Shown piece by piece: positions 26,768-37,450 of a stretch of 40,109 bases of DNA (position 1 is the first letter of the stretch; each line of letters begins with the position of its first letter). This DNA comes from Eubacteriales bacterium (lineage in GTDB: Bacteria; Bacillota; Clostridia; Oscillospirales; Acutalibacteraceae): positions 1 to 40,109 of the forward strand of contig JAQXWS010000025.1 in the NCBI GenBank assembly GCA_029225565.1, given 5' to 3'. The position numbers and the translations under genes were made by a program. The notes beneath the pieces were generated by a model. It did no database searches. It was not told the origin of the DNA and worked only from the letters and a program-made list of their open reading frames with translations.

Positions 26768-28120
26768 TTATGCTAATTTGCCGTCCTTGTACTCATAGAT
26801 ATAACCGTATTTTCCGTCAGAGGTGGTAGCATAGGCGTTGTAATGAGTACCGAATTTGGTTGTGGATTTTATGGTAAGGGTCTTGCCCTTCTTGACAATA
26901 TACTTGTGGGTACCCGAGTAGCACTGTATTGCGGGATACAGCTTTACATCCCTGGTAGCAGTCATGGAAATATTCAACGGAGATACCTTTTTTGACGGAA
27001 CATACCTTTTGGCCGACTCAAAGTGAGTGATATAATTCCCGTCCACAGGACGCACCACCACTCCGTCGGCAGAGCCGGTGGAATGTATCATGGTTTTGTC
27101 GCCGAGATAAATGGCACAGTGATTGAATGGATAGTCGTGCTTTGGCCCTCCCGGAGAATTGAAAAACAGAATATCCCCCGGCAATATCTTGCTCCAATCT
27201 ATGGTGCCCTTGCACAAAGTCTTGGCACGGAACTCGGTGGAATAGCCGTTGTTATATACAATACTTGTATCGTGCAGCTGTTTCAGGTTGGCAGTAAGAC
27301 GATAGCACTTTACATCATTTTGCATAACCTGATTCAGCACGCAGGACACGAAGCCCGAGCAATCAAAGCCTATCTTGCCGTTGCCGTCCTCATCCTTGCC
27401 GGTGGATTCATCGTGAACATACTCCGTCTCCTGGCTGTTGTAATACAGCGCCAAGTCCACCACCTGCTGGCGGTAGCTGGTAGCTGTGTTTTTGACCATA
27501 ATATTCTTTGGCTTTGAGTACAGGCTGTAATATGTATTGCCGCCCACCTTTTTGTAGGACCTGATTTTTACATAATACATCTTACCCTTAGAAAGACTTG
27601 ATATAGTTTTTGCAATAGAGGTGCCGGACACGGTAATCTTTTTTGCATTAGAAAAATTGCTGTATCTGGAGTACTTAATCTGGTATCCTGTGGCAGCGCT
27701 GTTTTTGTAGCTGACCACCCTCATCTGACCCGTGGACGGGGACGACAATGACTTGATACCGGGCCTTATCAGACGATAGATAGTGCGGGTTGCAGTGTTA
27801 GTATATTTTTTTGTGCCTTTGTAGGGATATACCTTGTACACATATTTTCTGCCGTTGGTGACATTGGTATCCGTCCAGGATACTGTGGATACGGACTTGA
27901 TGGTCTTCACCCTGGACCAAGTATTTGATGAACCGGATTTGCGATATATGTAATAACCTGTTTTGTCGGCAGCCTTGCTCCATCTTACCTTGATACCGGA
28001 GCTGTAATTGGACACACGGGTAACGGCTCCGCCTGTTGCCGCACTAACTGTAGAAATACCCGACAGCACACCCACCGTCATAATCAATGACAGCAGTAGC
28101 GATACAATCTTCTTTGTCAT
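26768..28120 (-). CDS. Secreted NlpC/P60 peptidoglycan hydrolase with FN3-like repeats
   Basis: Exported endopeptidase of about 450 residues, likely cleaving stem peptides of peptidoglycan. A signal peptide (about 1-27, ending VSAA) is followed by two fibronectin-III-like segments (about 30-115 and 120-210), the NlpC/P60 domain (about 215-375) with catalytic C254 in GFDCSGFVSC, H334 in NHCAIYLGD and H346 in MIHSTG, and a basic SH3-like C-terminus. ATG 28120 follows AAAGGAGGG; the longer in-frame extension has none. It has its own promoter and terminator. Confidence 0.92.
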   Translation of the reverse strand: MTKKIVSLLLSLIMTVGVLSGISTVSAATGGAVTRVSNYSSGIKVRWSKAADKTGYYIYRKSGSSNTWSRVKTIKSVSTVSWTDTNVTNGRKYVYKVYPYKGTKKYTNTATRTIYRLIRPGIKSLSSPSTGQMRVVSYKNSAATGYQIKYSRYSNFSNAKKITVSGTSIAKTISSLSKGKMYYVKIRSYKKVGGNTYYSLYSKPKNIMVKNTATSYRQQVVDLALYYNSQETEYVHDESTGKDEDGNGKIGFDCSGFVSCVLNQVMQNDVKCYRLTANLKQLHDTSIVYNNGYSTEFRAKTLCKGTIDWSKILPGDILFFNSPGGPKHDYPFNHCAIYLGDKTMIHSTGSADGVVVRPVDGNYITHFESAKRYVPSKKVSPLNISMTATRDVKLYPAIQCYSGTHKYIVKKGKTLTIKSTTKFGTHYNAYATTSDGKYGYIYEYKDGKLA

Positions 28121-28140
28121 AATTCGCCCTCCTTTTTTTA

Positions 28141-28169
28141 ATAATACCATTAATTAACTCTGTAATCAA
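28141..28169 (-). promoter_or_regulatory. Promoter of the NlpC/P60 gene
   Basis: Minus-strand TTGATT (28169-28164) and TATTAT (28146-28141) with a 17-bp spacer, directly after the upstream gene's terminator. Confidence 0.75.
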
Positions 28170-28206: not shown

Positions 28207-29748
28207 TTACTTTGTCACAACGGACTTGGTACTGCTCCAAGGAGAATATACCCTCACAATTTTGTCGCCGGATTTTATCTTTTTGTAGGCACGCACACGA
28301 ACATAATATCTGGTATTGGACTTCAGCTTTGTATGCTTTGTTGTCAGCTTGTCGGTACCGAGATATGTATGTGTTTTGCCGGTAGAAAAATCTTTTTTGC
28401 TGGAATACTTTATTTGGTAGCCCGAAGCGGCGCTCACCTTTTTGTGACTAACCTTAAAATACTTTTTACCGCCGGTTAGGGTGACGCTGCCGGGAGTTGC
28501 CAGCACTTTTTTGCTGACATAATTATCCTTGTATTTGTATCCGCATTTGGTACAGGTGTGCAAGGTGTATCCCTTTGCAAGATAGGTTGGCGCTACTGCC
28601 TTGCTTGTATAACTGTGCCCTGCTGCCTTTACTGTAGCGGTGTATGAGTTGCTGCACAGGGTACAGGTGTATGTTCTCACGCCTGATTTTGTACAAGTGG
28701 GAGCTGTTGTAATCTTTGACTTGTAGCTATGCTTTGCATAAGCCGGATAGTTGTAACTAACAGCTCTGTCGCAATCCTCACAGTTAAGATACCTTTTGCC
28801 TGCTGCACAGGGATGGGCGGTGGATGAACTCAGTATCAAATTGTGGCTGTAGCCTGTCTTTTTTACTGCGTCGTAGTATGCCTCAAAGCCCAACAGAGCG
28901 TCCTTTGTGGCATAAGCGTCGTCGCTGCCGTAATTAGTTATCACACCGGTGCTGCTCTCAAATCCGTTGACCAAATTGCTGTACATATATGACGCCAAAT
29001 CCATAGCGCCTATTGCCGAGTATGCCATCAGCACCATGGCTGTGGAGTCTGGACTGGTGGTGTTGTAGGTATGGCTGTAGAATGCACCGTCATCATTGGT
29101 ATGCTTGGCAATAACTGTTCTTGCGTCCCTGATAACATCGGCGTAGCGCTCCTTATATTTTGCAACGGACGCAATCAGCACGGCAGTATTATCACAGGAA
29201 AAACCGTAATAATTCATTCCCTGACCCATAACATAATAATCTTTGATAAACCTGTCGCACAGACTGACAGCAAAGTCCTCATCGGCAGCCTCAATAGCAA
29301 CTCTGTAATAGTAGGGATTGTATATTTCGTTAGGGCTCATAGACTCAAACTGCTCCACAAGATTTACTCCCGAAAAGCTTGTTGGGTCATAGTCCAGGAT
29401 TCTAAGGATGGATATTACCGCCCCATACTGTCCCAAGTCAGCGGTACCGTAAGCGGTGAGCAATCTGCCGTTTTTCTTAATATTCTCTTGCACGCCGGCA
29501 ACAAATCCGTCAACATAGGCGCTCATATCATATCCCGACTTAAGGTAGGTCAAAAAATCCACCGCCTTGTCCACAGTCAGCCCATCAGTTTCTAAATCCA
29601 GCAGAAATTTTGCGCCACCTTGCATACGACGGCTGATAGCCTGTTCCAACAGCTTGGAATCACACTGACTTGCCATAGCAGATGTGGGCATCCCAAAGCT
29701 GCCGATAATCAGCACGAGGCTCATAATAATTGATAATACTTTTTTCAT
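28207..29748 (-). CDS. Secreted alpha/alpha-toroid protein with FN3 domain, riboswitch-controlled
   Basis: Exported protein of about 513 residues. A signal peptide (about 1-26, ending SAMA) is followed by a helical region (about 30-310) with prenyltransferase/squalene-cyclase-like toroid repeats (NDDGAFYSHTYNTTSPDSTA, AVLIASVAKY), three Cys-rich Gly/Tyr segments (CEDC, CTLC, CTKC pairs; about 320-405) and a C-terminal FN3-like domain (about 410-505). The toroid fold is shared with transcobalamin and intrinsic factor. Because a cobalamin riboswitch precedes the gene, binding or capture of corrinoids outside the cell is a reasonable inference, not proof. ATG 29748 is preferred over ATG 29757, which is too close to AAAGG. 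Confidence 0.75.
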   Translation of the reverse strand: MKKVLSIIMSLVLIIGSFGMPTSAMASQCDSKLLEQAISRRMQGGAKFLLDLETDGLTVDKAVDFLTYLKSGYDMSAYVDGFVAGVQENIKKNGRLLTAYGTADLGQYGAVISILRILDYDPTSFSGVNLVEQFESMSPNEIYNPYYYRVAIEAADEDFAVSLCDRFIKDYYVMGQGMNYYGFSCDNTAVLIASVAKYKERYADVIRDARTVIAKHTNDDGAFYSHTYNTTSPDSTAMVLMAYSAIGAMDLASYMYSNLVNGFESSTGVITNYGSDDAYATKDALLGFEAYYDAVKKTGYSHNLILSSSTAHPCAAGKRYLNCEDCDRAVSYNYPAYAKHSYKSKITTAPTCTKSGVRTYTCTLCSNSYTATVKAAGHSYTSKAVAPTYLAKGYTLHTCTKCGYKYKDNYVSKKVLATPGSVTLTGGKKYFKVSHKKVSAASGYQIKYSSKKDFSTGKTHTYLGTDKLTTKHTKLKSNTRYYVRVRAYKKIKSGDKIVRVYSPWSSTKSVVTK

Positions 29749-29781
29749 ACTTCTCATAACCTTTCGATATTATTTGAAAAT

Positions 29782-29806
29782 AAAAAACACCCTGCAACGC
29801 AGAGTG
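29782..29806 (-). terminator. Riboswitch expression-platform terminator
   Basis: On the minus strand CACTCTGC/GCAGGGTG (one U-G pair) with loop GTT is followed by six T, located between the aptamer and the start codon. A smaller hairpin with a T run (AGGC/GCCT, about 29821-29832) lies just before it. Cobalamin binding would favour termination. Confidence 0.75.
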
Positions 29807-29873
29807 GGTACAACAAAAAAGAGGCAAAAGCCTTTAATTCCCTGCTTTCCCACTTGCCCAAAAGCGAAATCCA

Positions 29874-30010
29874 CACATAGCTCGTCTCCCGACTTATGAT
29901 ATAGCATTGCCTGTGAACGCTCCTTCTCGTTGCCGATGGATTGCGCCCCCTTCGTCAAATACGGTAATGGCGGTTGCTCAGGATTCTCACCTGATTCCGT
30001 TAGCTATGCA
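29874..30010 (-). ncRNA. Cobalamin riboswitch aptamer
   Basis: On the minus strand the P1 helix forms between TGCATAGCT (30010-30002) and AGCTATGTG (29882-29874). Inside are the conserved GGTGAGAATCC core (near 29992-29981), CCGCC followed by a diverged B12-box region (near 29975-29960), and AAGTCGGGAGACGAGC (near 29896-29881), the equivalent of the family's AGCCAGGAGACC element. Length of about 137 nt fits the class. It lies between a consensus promoter and a terminator ahead of the toroid-protein gene, so it probably turns that gene off when cobalamin is plentiful. Confidence 0.87.
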
Positions 30011-30029
30011 TTATTTTATTTTCTATCGG

Positions 30030-30058
30030 ATTATAGCACGACTCTGCATTAATTACAA
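30030..30058 (-). promoter_or_regulatory. Promoter of the cobalamin-riboswitch transcript
   Basis: Minus-strand TTGTAA (30058-30053) and TATAAT (30035-30030) with a 17-bp spacer. Start predicted near 30023, a few bases before the aptamer P1 helix. It is back to back with the ilvE promoter. Confidence 0.8.
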
Positions 30059-30080
30059 GAATTATTTTTTTCACCGCCTA

Positions 30081-33001: not shown

Positions 33002-33062
33002 GTGGTTGTGCAATTTTTTCATTATTTCTAAAGATTTGAATCTTATCATTGTAGTAATAATA

Positions 33063-33541
33063 ATCTATAACAGTAGAAATTATTAGGGATTATTAATCAT
33101 CCGGTAGAGGTATTCACATCTTAGTATCTACAACAGTAGAAATTATTAGGAATTATTAATCTCAGAACTTTATGTTAGTTCAGCTAAATCTACAACAGTA
33201 GAAATTATTAGGGATTATTAATCCTTAAAAAGGCACTTGGCTTCAGTTATGAAATCTACAACAGTAGAAATTATTAGGGATTATTAATCAAAAGCAAGAA
33301 GAAAACTACAAGATATATCTACAACAGTAGAAATTATTGGGAATTATTAATCGCAAAATGTTCGGATTGCCCTGCTTTATCTACAACAGTAGAAATTATT
33401 AGGGATTATTAATCAAGTAGCGTATAAAAAGTACACTTATTAATCTACAACAGTAGAAATTATTAGGGATTATTAATCCCTCAGGCAGCATTTCCATAAT
33501 CGCTTTATCTACAACAGTAGAAATTATTAGTGATTATTATC
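33063..33541 (-). CRISPR. Type V-A CRISPR array, 8 repeats and 7 spacers
   Basis: Repeats start at 33063, 33126, 33188, 33254, 33317, 33379, 33443 and 33507; each is 36 bp (the last 35). Spacers are 26-30 bp. On the minus strand every repeat ends with the Cas12a handle AATTTCTACTGTTGTAGAT, so transcription runs from high to low coordinates, in the same direction as cas12a. Handles of the seven repeats that precede a spacer are identical. Only the distal repeat (33063) has a handle change, which breaks a stem pair. Repeats at 33126, 33317 and 33507 differ only in the 5' part that is trimmed off. Spacer targets cannot be named from here. No second array was seen. Confidence 0.97.
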
Positions 33542-33767
33542 AATTGATTGCTCATCTTGTTTGATACTATAATCTTAGCTATACCCTGCAACACACTCTT
33601 TTCGGTTGAGTATGTTGCAGAGTCTGAATGTTTATGGGCATCTGTTCCATTTAATTGAAACGAATCCTGAACCATAATGTTTTCTTCTGTTTCAAGTTAA
33701 TGAAAAAATATTGAAACAGGGCAGAATATAAAATCATTCAATTGAGATATAGCTAAAGGCTGTTCGC
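33542..33767 (-). promoter_or_regulatory. Region between cas12a and the array (putative leader)
   Basis: 226 bases without a gene. They contain CTGCAACACACTC/GAGTATGTTGCAG (33586-33598 with 33608-33620, one mismatch), CTGTTTCAA/TTGAAACAG (33687-33695 with 33711-33719, perfect) and an outer pair TTAGCTATA/TATAGCTAA (33575-33583 with 33744-33752). None has a downstream T run on the minus strand. TATAGT near 33566-33571 on the minus strand might be a -10 box, but no good -35 fits. The position suits an array leader or promoter; its function is not shown. Confidence 0.4.
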
Positions 33768-36344
33768 TCATCGCTGTGTATATTCAAGCCATTCGGCATT
33801 AGTTATACTAAGTTTTGCGCTATTAAGCATATCGTCTGGGGTGTCTTTTAATACATTTATTGCCCAAAGTGCTTTTCTTGCAATGTTATATGCACCGTTG
33901 GCATCGGCATCGCAAGGCAAAGAGGCATTTGTACCTTTATAATTACGACTGTCATAGAACTCGCCGTTTTCATTTGCAACAGGTGAGATGAGGTAGTCGT
34001 CTTCAGGTAATGTGCTTCCGGTAATACTGTTTCTCATTTGAAGTGTTAATGAAAGAAGTTTTATCAATCGCTTGTAAAAATCAGCATTAGAAATACTTAA
34101 AATAGAATCCTTAAGATTGCCTGTATAATCAATGCCGAATTCGTTAAACAATGACTTGAATTCATCGGTAAGAACAATTTGCTTATTGTCCCACATATTA
34201 TTCTTTTCTTTGTTTCGGAAGGTTAAAATCCTGCTTGAATTAGTGCAAACAGTCCAAGATTTTTTGAAATCTGAATTGCATCTCGGGAATTTGCTGTAAT
34301 CAATATAGAACTCAAACATATCGGTATTTGCATTATATTTGATGTCATCAATTGTTTCAAAAAGATTTTTCGCCTCCGGAACACTTGTATACCTTGGCTT
34401 CAAAAGATTAACAAAACCTGTTGCCGGGTCTATTTTACTTGTATCCCACGCAGGAACATAAAAGATGATACCGTTTTGCTTAGCCTTATTTACGCCGTCA
34501 AATTTATTCGTAAGCTGATATGCTCTTAAAAGGCCGCCGTTTTCTGTTGGGTCTGCCTTTTTATCAATGAGCAAATTGAGTTTTGAAATAAGCATATTTT
34601 CAAATTTTTGATAAACTTGCTTTTCAACAGGGAATCTGCCACGCTTAAAGCCAAAATTCAAATCCTCCATGGCGATAACAGCGTCATATTTGACGACTAA
34701 TTCACAAATTTTGTGAACAACCTGACTGATATACCCTTCTTTGAGTTCCTTTATATTTTCAACAGAGGTCCAATTCTTTCTTGCTTTATCTCTTTCTTTT
34801 TCTTTTGTGTCCAAAAGCTTTTGATAATCAACTCTGTGTCCGTTATCACTGATTATTTCATTAAGCGACATTTGCTCAACAATTTTGCCGTTTGAGTTGA
34901 TAACGCTTATATAAATCAGGTTTCTCTCTCCTCGGTCAATGCCGACGACATAATTATCATCTTTGTATTTAACCGCCTTGCGAACATCATTATTCAAAAA
35001 TTCCTGACCGTGTGCCTTAAAGTTGATTGTAATAGGCACATGAAGTGAAAATTGCCTTTTGGTAAATCTTTTATCTTTAATGATGTCATACTCAAAAGTG
35101 CTTTCTTTTTTCTCATTATCAGGGTTTTTATTTTTTATCGGTTGATTGGCATAGTGAGTTACTTTCTCTTTATCACCGATACTTGCTTCACGGTAGAACA
35201 TCTCTGCCTCACCGTTGAGTTTATAAACTACATTTGATAAGTTTCTCTCGTCAAAAAGCATTTTGAAATATAAAGTGTGCAAATTAGGAGTTCCTTTGCT
35301 GTACTTTGAAAAGTCTTTATTGTAGATTTGGAAAAGATAGATATATCCGTTTTCTACAAGCCCATCAATATAGTTTTTAGATATTTTATTAAATCTTACA
35401 GAATAACCCTGATCCGAAATTTCTCGATAAAATTCACTAATATCGTTATAGCTTTCTGTAGGAGAAAACTTAAATCCAAATTGTGACCAATCATCATGTT
35501 TTTCAATAGATTCTTTGAAATAATCTATAAACTCATGACATTCGGCTTTGTTAAATGTTGCTCCTTTTTTGAAGCTTTCTCTTTTGCGAATGTCAAGTAT
35601 TCTGTCTGACGGTTGGAATGTATCAATGTTTTTAGTGGCAAAGAAAACCTTTGGTAACATTTTATTGGGACCCGGTAAAAGCTTATATTCCATTTTTTCG
35701 TAATAATCCTCGTCATCAGAGATTATTTCAGGTGCATCAACAAAAGCCTTACTGTGAGATTTGCCCATAACGGCAAGATAGTAAAAACCATCTTTATGTA
35801 AAAGAACAGTTCTGTAATCGCTTTCTTTGTTTTTATCCCATCCGCCAAGAAGTTGAGGATTGTCAAAATTCAATTTAATTTTATCTTTGGAATAAGGCTT
35901 TTGGGTAATGTAGTTTCTAACTTTATCGTAAAGCCTGTCGATATCTGCTATTGAGTCATAATGCGAAGTGAATTTGCCGTAAAAAATCTCATCCTTGTTT
36001 TCTTCCTTACCGGTACCGTTTAACGGCTTAATAAGCTTTTGAAATTCCTTTATTGCGTCAAGCAGGTTTTTAACTAACTCTGTTGCTTTTTCATTTTTAT
36101 AAAGTCTTTTATTGTAGCTTTTTTCATAATCGGAATTTAGCAATTCCTGTGCCTGCAAATAAGCTTCTTTTATTTTGCTGTTACATTCATTGATTGAGGA
36201 AATATACCAATCGGTTATTTCGTTGCCGTTTTCGTTACCAAGGTCTTGAAGCTCATAAAGAGAAAAACTTTTTATTGCTTTATATATCTTGTCTTGCTTT
36301 TCAATATATTTATCAATTTTTGTTTTGCTTGTTACGGGATGCAA
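33768..36344 (-). CDS. cas12a: Cas12a C-terminal fragment (REC2, WED, RuvC, Nuc)
   Basis: Open frame of 858 residues, continued upstream to about 36440 without a start. The listed first codon is a TTG with no convincing ribosome site, so independent translation is doubtful. It carries RuvC-I VVGIDRGERN, bridge-helix region, RuvC-II VIAMEDLNFGF, Nuc QMRNSITG and RuvC-III DANGAYNIAR, i.e. all nuclease residues. Confidence 0.8.
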   Translation of the reverse strand: MHPVTSKTKIDKYIEKQDKIYKAIKSFSLYELQDLGNENGNEITDWYISSINECNSKIKEAYLQAQELLNSDYEKSYNKRLYKNEKATELVKNLLDAIKEFQKLIKPLNGTGKEENKDEIFYGKFTSHYDSIADIDRLYDKVRNYITQKPYSKDKIKLNFDNPQLLGGWDKNKESDYRTVLLHKDGFYYLAVMGKSHSKAFVDAPEIISDDEDYYEKMEYKLLPGPNKMLPKVFFATKNIDTFQPSDRILDIRKRESFKKGATFNKAECHEFIDYFKESIEKHDDWSQFGFKFSPTESYNDISEFYREISDQGYSVRFNKISKNYIDGLVENGYIYLFQIYNKDFSKYSKGTPNLHTLYFKMLFDERNLSNVVYKLNGEAEMFYREASIGDKEKVTHYANQPIKNKNPDNEKKESTFEYDIIKDKRFTKRQFSLHVPITINFKAHGQEFLNNDVRKAVKYKDDNYVVGIDRGERNLIYISVINSNGKIVEQMSLNEIISDNGHRVDYQKLLDTKEKERDKARKNWTSVENIKELKEGYISQVVHKICELVVKYDAVIAMEDLNFGFKRGRFPVEKQVYQKFENMLISKLNLLIDKKADPTENGGLLRAYQLTNKFDGVNKAKQNGIIFYVPAWDTSKIDPATGFVNLLKPRYTSVPEAKNLFETIDDIKYNANTDMFEFYIDYSKFPRCNSDFKKSWTVCTNSSRILTFRNKEKNNMWDNKQIVLTDEFKSLFNEFGIDYTGNLKDSILSISNADFYKRLIKLLSLTLQMRNSITGSTLPEDDYLISPVANENGEFYDSRNYKGTNASLPCDADANGAYNIARKALWAINVLKDTPDDMLNSAKLSITNAEWLEYTQR

Positions 36345-36433
36345 TGCCTCGTATTTCTCGTTCCAAGCTGAGCGTAATACATTCCAAGAGTTAAATGCAC
36401 CGTTTGAAATATCAGTAATGGCTACACCTGATT

Positions 36434-37450
36434 TTACAAATATTCATTAGCATTATAAGTGTTTAATGATTGCAAAAGCTCTGTTAGCAAATCAATATCA
36501 CCAATGTGGTTGTTATAATAATCACCAATAGCATACAACACTTCATTGTCTGAATTGAATTTTTCGGGTATGAACGATACGCTGTCCTTTTCGCTCAAAA
36601 TTTGTTTATATAAAGGCTTCATCAATGGCAATCTTTTTGATTTTTCATTTTTTGCAACCTGCTGGTTATAAAGATTTATGCATTCATTAAGACCTTGGAT
36701 TTTTGTTCCGTCAGAGCAAGTATATCCGCCAATCATAGAATTATAAATTTCAATACCCGATTGAGCTAAAACAAATTCAAAATAATCAACAGAAAAAATA
36801 TCTTCAATATTTCTGCCGAATATATTATATAAATCTGTGTTTAGCTTTGTTATAGTTTCATCAGAAAGATTATCAAATACTTTTTGAAAACTTTTTACAT
36901 TATCTAAAAAGCGTGGCAGGTTGTCATTTATACAACGATAGGCTATTGCGGTTGATTTTTCATCACTTGAATACATATTTTCTCTATTAGTATTAAAGCC
37001 TTTGAAATACGTTGTAAAGCTTCTAAAGCACTCAACTGTTTCTATCTCGTTTTTATCCGTTAAAACAGACGGTAAATCTTCACATATAAGTTCTTTTCCG
37101 AACAGCCTTTTATAGCGTGCATTTGATTTGAGCTGCTTTGATATTTGCTTTCGCATATTATTTTCTAATGATTCCATAGCATTTATATCGGAATCATCCT
37201 TGTTGCTTTTCCAATATAAATTTGCATATTCATTAACTTTTTCAATTCTTGCTTTGCTCAACACGGATTCAATATATTCTTTATGAAAGCGATCAATATA
37301 GCCTTTGACCTTTTCATAATTCTCAGCTCTTTGTTTATCCTTTTCAAGCAAAAAATTTTTATTAAAATTATTTTCTGTTTCCCCAACGGGAATTAAAGAG
37401 AATCTTAAAGTTTTGGATAATGAATAACGATTTATAAACTGTTCTTTCAT
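36434..37450 (-). CDS. cas12a: Cas12a N-terminal fragment (REC1 part)
   Basis: Open frame of 338 residues beginning with the family start YSLSKTLRFSLIPVGETENN (WED-I) and covering most of the REC1 lobe, including NRENMYSSDEKSTAIAYRCI. It ends at a TAA created by the frameshift, after NANEYL. Alone it has no catalytic residues. Confidence 0.85.
   Translation of the reverse strand: MKEQFINRYSLSKTLRFSLIPVGETENNFNKNFLLEKDKQRAENYEKVKGYIDRFHKEYIESVLSKARIEKVNEYANLYWKSNKDDSDINAMESLENNMRKQISKQLKSNARYKRLFGKELICEDLPSVLTDKNEIETVECFRSFTTYFKGFNTNRENMYSSDEKSTAIAYRCINDNLPRFLDNVKSFQKVFDNLSDETITKLNTDLYNIFGRNIEDIFSVDYFEFVLAQSGIEIYNSMIGGYTCSDGTKIQGLNECINLYNQQVAKNEKSKRLPLMKPLYKQILSEKDSVSFIPEKFNSDNEVLYAIGDYYNNHIGDIDLLTELLQSLNTYNANEYL

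Follow-up and report, generated by a model that had tools for sequence, protein, structure and literature searches.

Background

Surface proteins of Gram-positive bacteria in which an alpha/alpha toroid is fused to an SLBB beta-grasp domain were described by Burroughs et al. 2007 (PMC1796856) and predicted to scavenge vitamin B12. Because such fused proteins were predicted at that time, the kind of system treated here is already known and only the variant is new; a preliminary description of this locus, according to which no described protein has this domain set, went too far. The likeness extends to the Gram-positive host, export or surface location, the toroid, a beta-grasp partner and the predicted scavenging of B12. 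Operons with a second SLBB protein are a further feature in common, and the operons of PMC1796856 often hold CbiO/CbiQ-like genes. There, both domains lie in one chain, whereas the present toroid is a protein without the beta-grasp domain, and DUF4430 has its own gene, either next to that of the toroid or unlinked. The main text of PMC1796856 does not mention riboswitch control, and the searched part of the transcobalamin, SLBB and DUF4430 literature yielded no cobalamin riboswitch tied to a toroid or DUF4430 protein.

The animal carriers transcobalamin, intrinsic factor and haptocorrin also have an alpha/alpha toroid, and DUF4430 (PF14478) is the family of their C-terminal beta half (PMC4350170, PMC1796856). 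These carriers are single chains with the toroid first; here the halves are split and the fold scores are low. B12 is likewise captured at the surface of gut bacteria by BtuG and BtuH of Bacteroides (PMC6143338, PMC8941943), the genes of which lie in cobamide transport loci with riboswitches (PMC8941943). BtuG1 is named for its N-terminal beta-propeller and BtuH is a novel class (PMC8941943), descriptions that set them apart from the toroid.

Listed targets of the cobalamin riboswitch (RF00174) are B12 synthesis, B12 and cobalt transport, and isozymes of B12 enzymes (PMC3766115). The riboswitch reported here shares with its class a score above the gathering score, the P1 helix and a terminator, whereas its target, a toroid protein, falls outside the listed classes. 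The capture of cobamides by gut Firmicutes is a poorly understood field.

The locus and its riboswitch

The window, i.e. the whole stretch of 40,109 nucleotides that was analysed, carries on its minus strand a promoter-like site, a cobalamin riboswitch, a terminator and one gene for an exported protein of 516 amino acids, in that order. The features are the following.

30030..30058, minus strand: promoter-like site TTGTAA-17-TATAAT with TG before the -10 element, 10/12 consensus bases
29862..30061, minus strand: cobalamin riboswitch, extent of the Rfam match (RF00174, 45.9 bits, E 1.6e-8)
30002..30011, minus strand: 5' strand of the P1 helix, ten standard pairs with 29873-29882, -10.6 kcal/mol
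29873..29882, minus strand: 3' strand of the P1 helix, pairing with 30011-30002
29849..29859, minus strand: 5' strand of a possible antiterminator, partner 29799-29808, -11.5 kcal/mol
29788..29806, minus strand: intrinsic terminator, 8-bp stem and six U, -10.1 kcal/mol
28207..29757, minus strand: gene of the exported protein, 516 aa, from ORF translation
29671..29757, minus strand: signal peptide-like stretch, about 29 aa, read by eye
28846..29673, minus strand: alpha/alpha toroid domain, from the structural model, fold matches and profile searches
28522..28821, minus strand: Cys-pair segments, from the translation, limits by eye
28276..28458, minus strand: FN3-like domain (Pfam stretch), E 0.00099, below cut-off

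The aptamer proposed in the preliminary description was recovered by the covariance model at 45.9 bits against a gathering score of 31.5, and RF00174 is the only Rfam family above its cut-off in the window. No second RF00174 match was found in the source genome, an assembly of 1.76 Mb in 85 contigs that is 91% complete. The Rfam alignment sets P1 too far upstream; the pairing of 30011-30002 with 29882-29873, which bears out the P1 helix described earlier, is the better placement, and the paired aptamer probably starts near 30011. With P1 at this position the promoter-like site at 30058-30030 falls just ahead of the aptamer, so that the two placements agree. A promoter scan of the region gave 3 sites against a shuffle mean of 1.9, which is not above chance; the proposed promoter is thus kept as a consensus match just upstream of P1 only.

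The proposed terminator was confirmed at 29806-29788, where an 8-bp hairpin is followed by U6 (1 found in the scan against a shuffle mean of 0.4); upstream of it sits a weaker hairpin, AGGC/GCCU, also with a run of U. The partner strand of the candidate antiterminator, 29799-29808, overlaps the 5' arm of the terminator. A simple search of the relatives found a partner of at least 7 pairs in 19 of the 42 leaders with a terminator, with no consistent one among them. The antiterminator was therefore dropped as a conserved element, and the one at 29849-29859 stays a guess. The cobalamin riboswitch class turns expression off (e.g. PMC11477304), and by analogy the switch of the window would be of the OFF type.

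As first described, the gene at 28207-29757 (minus strand) encodes a 516-aa protein with a start that by eye resembles a signal peptide, and the Cys-pair segments can be seen in its translation.

Directly downstream of the toroid gene lies a gene for an exported NlpC/P60 protein with FN3-like repeats, 26768-28150 (minus strand). The window also holds a CRISPR array of 8 repeats (33058-33542), adjoining a Cas12a region at 33768-37450 in which Cas12a is split over two ORFs, the REC1 part at 36434-37450 and the remainder at 33768-36344.

Coupling across the genus

Among 80 genomes of the genus, the toroid was found in 70 and RF00174 in at least 72, the latter count being a lower bound because of stricter search filters. 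The toroid lies 94-1699 bp behind a same-strand cobalamin riboswitch in 62 of the 70 toroid genomes. Co-location by chance was rejected, since one riboswitch and one toroid per genome of about 2 Mb coincide in 62/70, though the genomes are related.

Neighbourhoods were examined for 71 of the 76 riboswitches found, five being outside the count. A toroid and/or DUF4430 gene with its frame start within 1.5 kb follows 67 of the 71: 61 are followed by the toroid, 6 by DUF4430 without a toroid match, and 4 by neither. The six frames with DUF4430 and no toroid match are large and exported, with 1255-2230 aa inside the stretches examined (L132, L133, L134, L135, L137, L138); for one of them, from G008, the full frame of 2615 aa has DUF4430 together with a toroid match at E 9.5e-8.

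Some genomes depart from this arrangement. G075 (L109), which is 98% complete, has a toroid and a head-to-head DUF4430 gene and no RF00174 match; its only B12-binding match is weak, and it has two strong FecCD matches. The riboswitch and DUF4430 of G033 share a contig, with the toroid on another. A second riboswitch is present in each of G071 and G028, ahead of a protein of 747 or 803 aa (L139:6935-9175, L140:3973-6381) with Ig-like and carboxypeptidase-regulatory-like domains; the domain search gave no toroid or DUF4430 match in either protein. Neither toroid nor DUF4430 follows the riboswitch of G074.

The type of switch was compared in 62 leader rows, each extending at most 260 nt past the Rfam match, with G052 counted twice. 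Terminator-like hairpins are present in 42. In fourteen further rows the gene starts no more than 25 nt after the Rfam match ends, and a terminator is absent; all 12 of these short leaders that were compared in sequence (L100, L101, L106, L113, L115, L116, L118, L120, L121, L123, L124, L126) have instead GGTGAGGT in common at the ribosome-binding position, which suggests translation control. No terminator was found in the remaining six rows. Taken together, the rows with terminators and the short rows with GGTGAGGT suggest termination in some members of the genus and control of translation in others.

The putative DUF4430 partner

No PF14478 match was found in the 516-aa protein of the window at E up to 1. 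The protein is not a whole transcobalamin, as the beta-grasp half is absent from the chain. One DUF4430 protein is encoded in the source genome (G000:C11:39106-39327, 62.8 bits), with a lipobox-like FFGC, on contig C11 and hence away from the toroid gene; the 9.5-kb stretch around it contains no riboswitch match at E up to 1.

DUF4430 occurs in 73 of the 80 genomes and in 68 of the 70 with a toroid. In 25 genomes its gene comes first in the riboswitch operon or precedes the toroid gene on the same strand (e.g. L078, E 3e-16, and L070, E 1.1e-17); relative to the toroid gene it is head-to-head in 16 and unlinked in 27, a class that includes the source genome and in which contig ends may conceal some links; none was found in 2. 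A clear lipobox was seen by eye in 15 of the 25 same-strand proteins and a likely one in three more (G028, G029, G078). Fifteen of the 16 head-to-head proteins have a hydrophobic start without a lipobox match, and that of G015 has one doubtful match.

Seven toroids match that of the window protein best, namely those of G050, G077, G007, G039, G002, G060 and G052. All except G052 have a fused N-terminal domain ahead of the toroid, which the window protein also lacks. The model of L064 shows this domain with a beta-grasp order of strands and helix, with a hairpin after the helix. Comparison with the DUF4430 profile was weak (probability 64%, E 6.4e-5), the profile match to the G001 chain was very weak (E 0.0081, 9.7 bits), and the DUF4430 alignment, searched against PDB, had no relevant match. 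Since structure matches of the fused model were mostly driven by the toroid, the beta-grasp reading of the N-terminal domain rests on the strand-helix order and the weak profile matches.

Judged from these sequence comparisons, the protein of the window most likely represents one half, the toroid, of a split, two-protein, transcobalamin-like system for corrinoid capture. The bacterial transcobalamin suggested at first is thus retained in its link between corrinoids and the transcobalamin fold (62/70, 68/70, 67/71), but not as one chain, the DUF4430 half being encoded elsewhere. A toroid that binds corrinoid by itself, as a one-domain scavenger released or loosely held through the FN3 and Cys segments, would agree with the missing DUF4430 in the window protein and with the 26 of 71 riboswitches that lead to a toroid gene with no same-strand DUF4430 behind it. 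We regard this as unlikely, as DUF4430 accompanies the toroid in 68/70 genomes and the ligand of animal transcobalamin is sandwiched between both domains (PMC1796856).

The toroid protein and its wider relatives

The first 285 mature residues were predicted to fold as an alpha/alpha toroid with a pLDDT of 95.7. The Pfam search of the toroid gave no family above cut-off, and, whether the query was the whole protein or its toroid, sequence searches of Pfam, NCBIfam and PDB returned nothing usable for the toroid. The toroid of the earlier description therefore stands on the model and the fold matches, but not on Pfam. Foldseek placed rat transcobalamin at rank 4 for the toroid model, with low scores for transcobalamin-type folds. 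The top matches of VIA-align were sugar epimerases and GH105 and GH88 enzymes, and transcobalamin was absent among the 50 matches listed. As epimerases, GH105/GH88 enzymes and terpene cyclases match equally well or better, the fold alone is not specific to transcobalamin, and the structural comparison proposed earlier supports a toroid without singling out the carrier. In profile searches the sequence is similar to toroids within DUF4430-bearing chains. A weak second match to the toroid profile lies in the source genome at G000:C19:5836-6117 (minus strand, E 1.4e-4, 281-aa frame).

The FN3-like domain is weak in the window protein (19.7 bits against a cut-off of 25) but passes it in L064, a relative with the toroid (29.2 bits), so that the earlier assignment holds for the relative and is below threshold for the window protein itself. 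CxxC pairs are present in FN3-tailed relatives as well.

A sample of 394 genomes from the order gave toroid profile matches in 92, among them the source genome and two congeners. ORFs were extracted at 20 of the best loci, and 10 were scanned for domains. Five of the ten (L196, L198, L202, L208, L211) hold DUF4430 above cut-off, and L202 has the toroid followed by DUF4430, as in animals. L199 has a weak DUF4430 match; L200, L203 and L205 have weak prenyltransferase-toroid matches, and L197 has no domain match. A cobalamin riboswitch is present in the short flanks of 3 of the 20 loci (L197, L203, L210). Named records with a toroid match (41 loci) are metagenome assemblies labelled Eubacterium, Clostridia, Ruminococcaceae and similar, several of them from rumen or reticulum samples.

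The C-terminal ends were classified for 64 uncut toroid ORFs, a count that leaves out the window protein and the ORF of G042, which is a fragment. An LPxTG-like end was found in 30, choline-binding-like repeats in 7, and neither pattern in 27. The window protein has no LPxTG-like end and no choline-binding-like repeats.

The best VIA-align matches, together with FN3 or choline-binding repeats in some tails, would also fit a surface enzyme, acting for example on glycans, which is under B12 control for indirect reasons. Such matches are, however, expected from many alpha6/alpha6 barrels, and the presence of DUF4430 in the same chain in sequence relatives as well as the riboswitch link in 62/70 toroid genomes make an enzyme quite improbable.

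Vitamin B12 physiology

CbiC, a step of corrin-ring synthesis and the sole synthesis gene in the search, had no match in any of the 80 genomes (0/80). A B12-binding domain was found in all 80, above cut-off in 79 and at E 3.9e-24 or better in 78; that of the source genome is part of MetH, with a DIHDIGK motif. Judged by these genes, the source bacterium uses B12 but seems unable to make it.

The FecCD/BtuC permease, by which uptake of the BtuCDF type was judged, gave 0 matches in the 91% complete source genome. Across the genus FecCD has a match in 23/80 genomes, above cut-off in 10/80. Because no such permease was found, an ECF-type importer is favoured, and the putative B12 importer is probably an ECF-type transporter. 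Four matches to ECF S-components were found in the source genome, 3 of them above cut-off. The best one sits behind an FMN riboswitch and is therefore probably a riboflavin transporter; no B12-specific importer emerged from these matches.

That the ligand is corrinoid-like rather than cobalamin (cobinamide or another tetrapyrrole), or is passed to other cells, is highly doubtful: DUF4430 is divergent and may bind other ligands according to a reviewer in PMC1796856, and the pair persists in G075, where no B12-binding enzyme gave a clear match, but a cobalamin riboswitch implies sensing of the cobamide pool and 78/80 genomes have strong matches to the B12-binding domain.

Proposed mechanism

The preferred reading is a riboswitch-controlled clamp of toroid and DUF4430 that captures corrinoid and hands it to an importer for use by MetH, and we hold this to be reasonably probable. 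When corrinoid is short, the riboswitch would let transcription pass the terminator and the exported toroid protein would be made. Together with the DUF4430 beta-grasp protein closing over the ligand, it would catch extracellular cobalamin or a related corrinoid. In animal transcobalamin and intrinsic factor such a clamp is formed by two domains of one chain; here each of them would be encoded as a protein of its own. We infer that both halves assemble around the ligand and that the DUF4430 half, a predicted membrane lipoprotein, hands it to the importer, which is probably of the ECF type. The imported corrinoid would then serve the methionine synthase MetH.

A more specific version is put forward tentatively, its chances being somewhat below even. 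The clamp would be a two-part surface device, with the toroid held at the wall in many relatives and DUF4430 at the membrane, feeding an ECF importer. B12 would switch the toroid half alone in this lineage, and among the relatives the two halves would be found fused in one chain, as operon or head-to-head neighbours, or unlinked.

Significance

The genus has CbiC in 0/80 genomes, FecCD above cut-off in 10/80 and the B12-binding domain in 80/80, and its cobalamin riboswitches sit almost solely on toroid and DUF4430 genes (67/71). This regulatory coupling is independent evidence on the ligand class for the bacterial transcobalamins predicted in 2007, and a set of small toroid and DUF4430 proteins is now at hand for expression and testing. 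The finding also bears on the proposal in PMC1796856 that animal B12 carriers were taken from such bacteria. If the more specific version is true, the range from one chain to neighbouring and then unlinked genes would illustrate a way in which bacterial parts could have given rise to the B12 carriers of animals.
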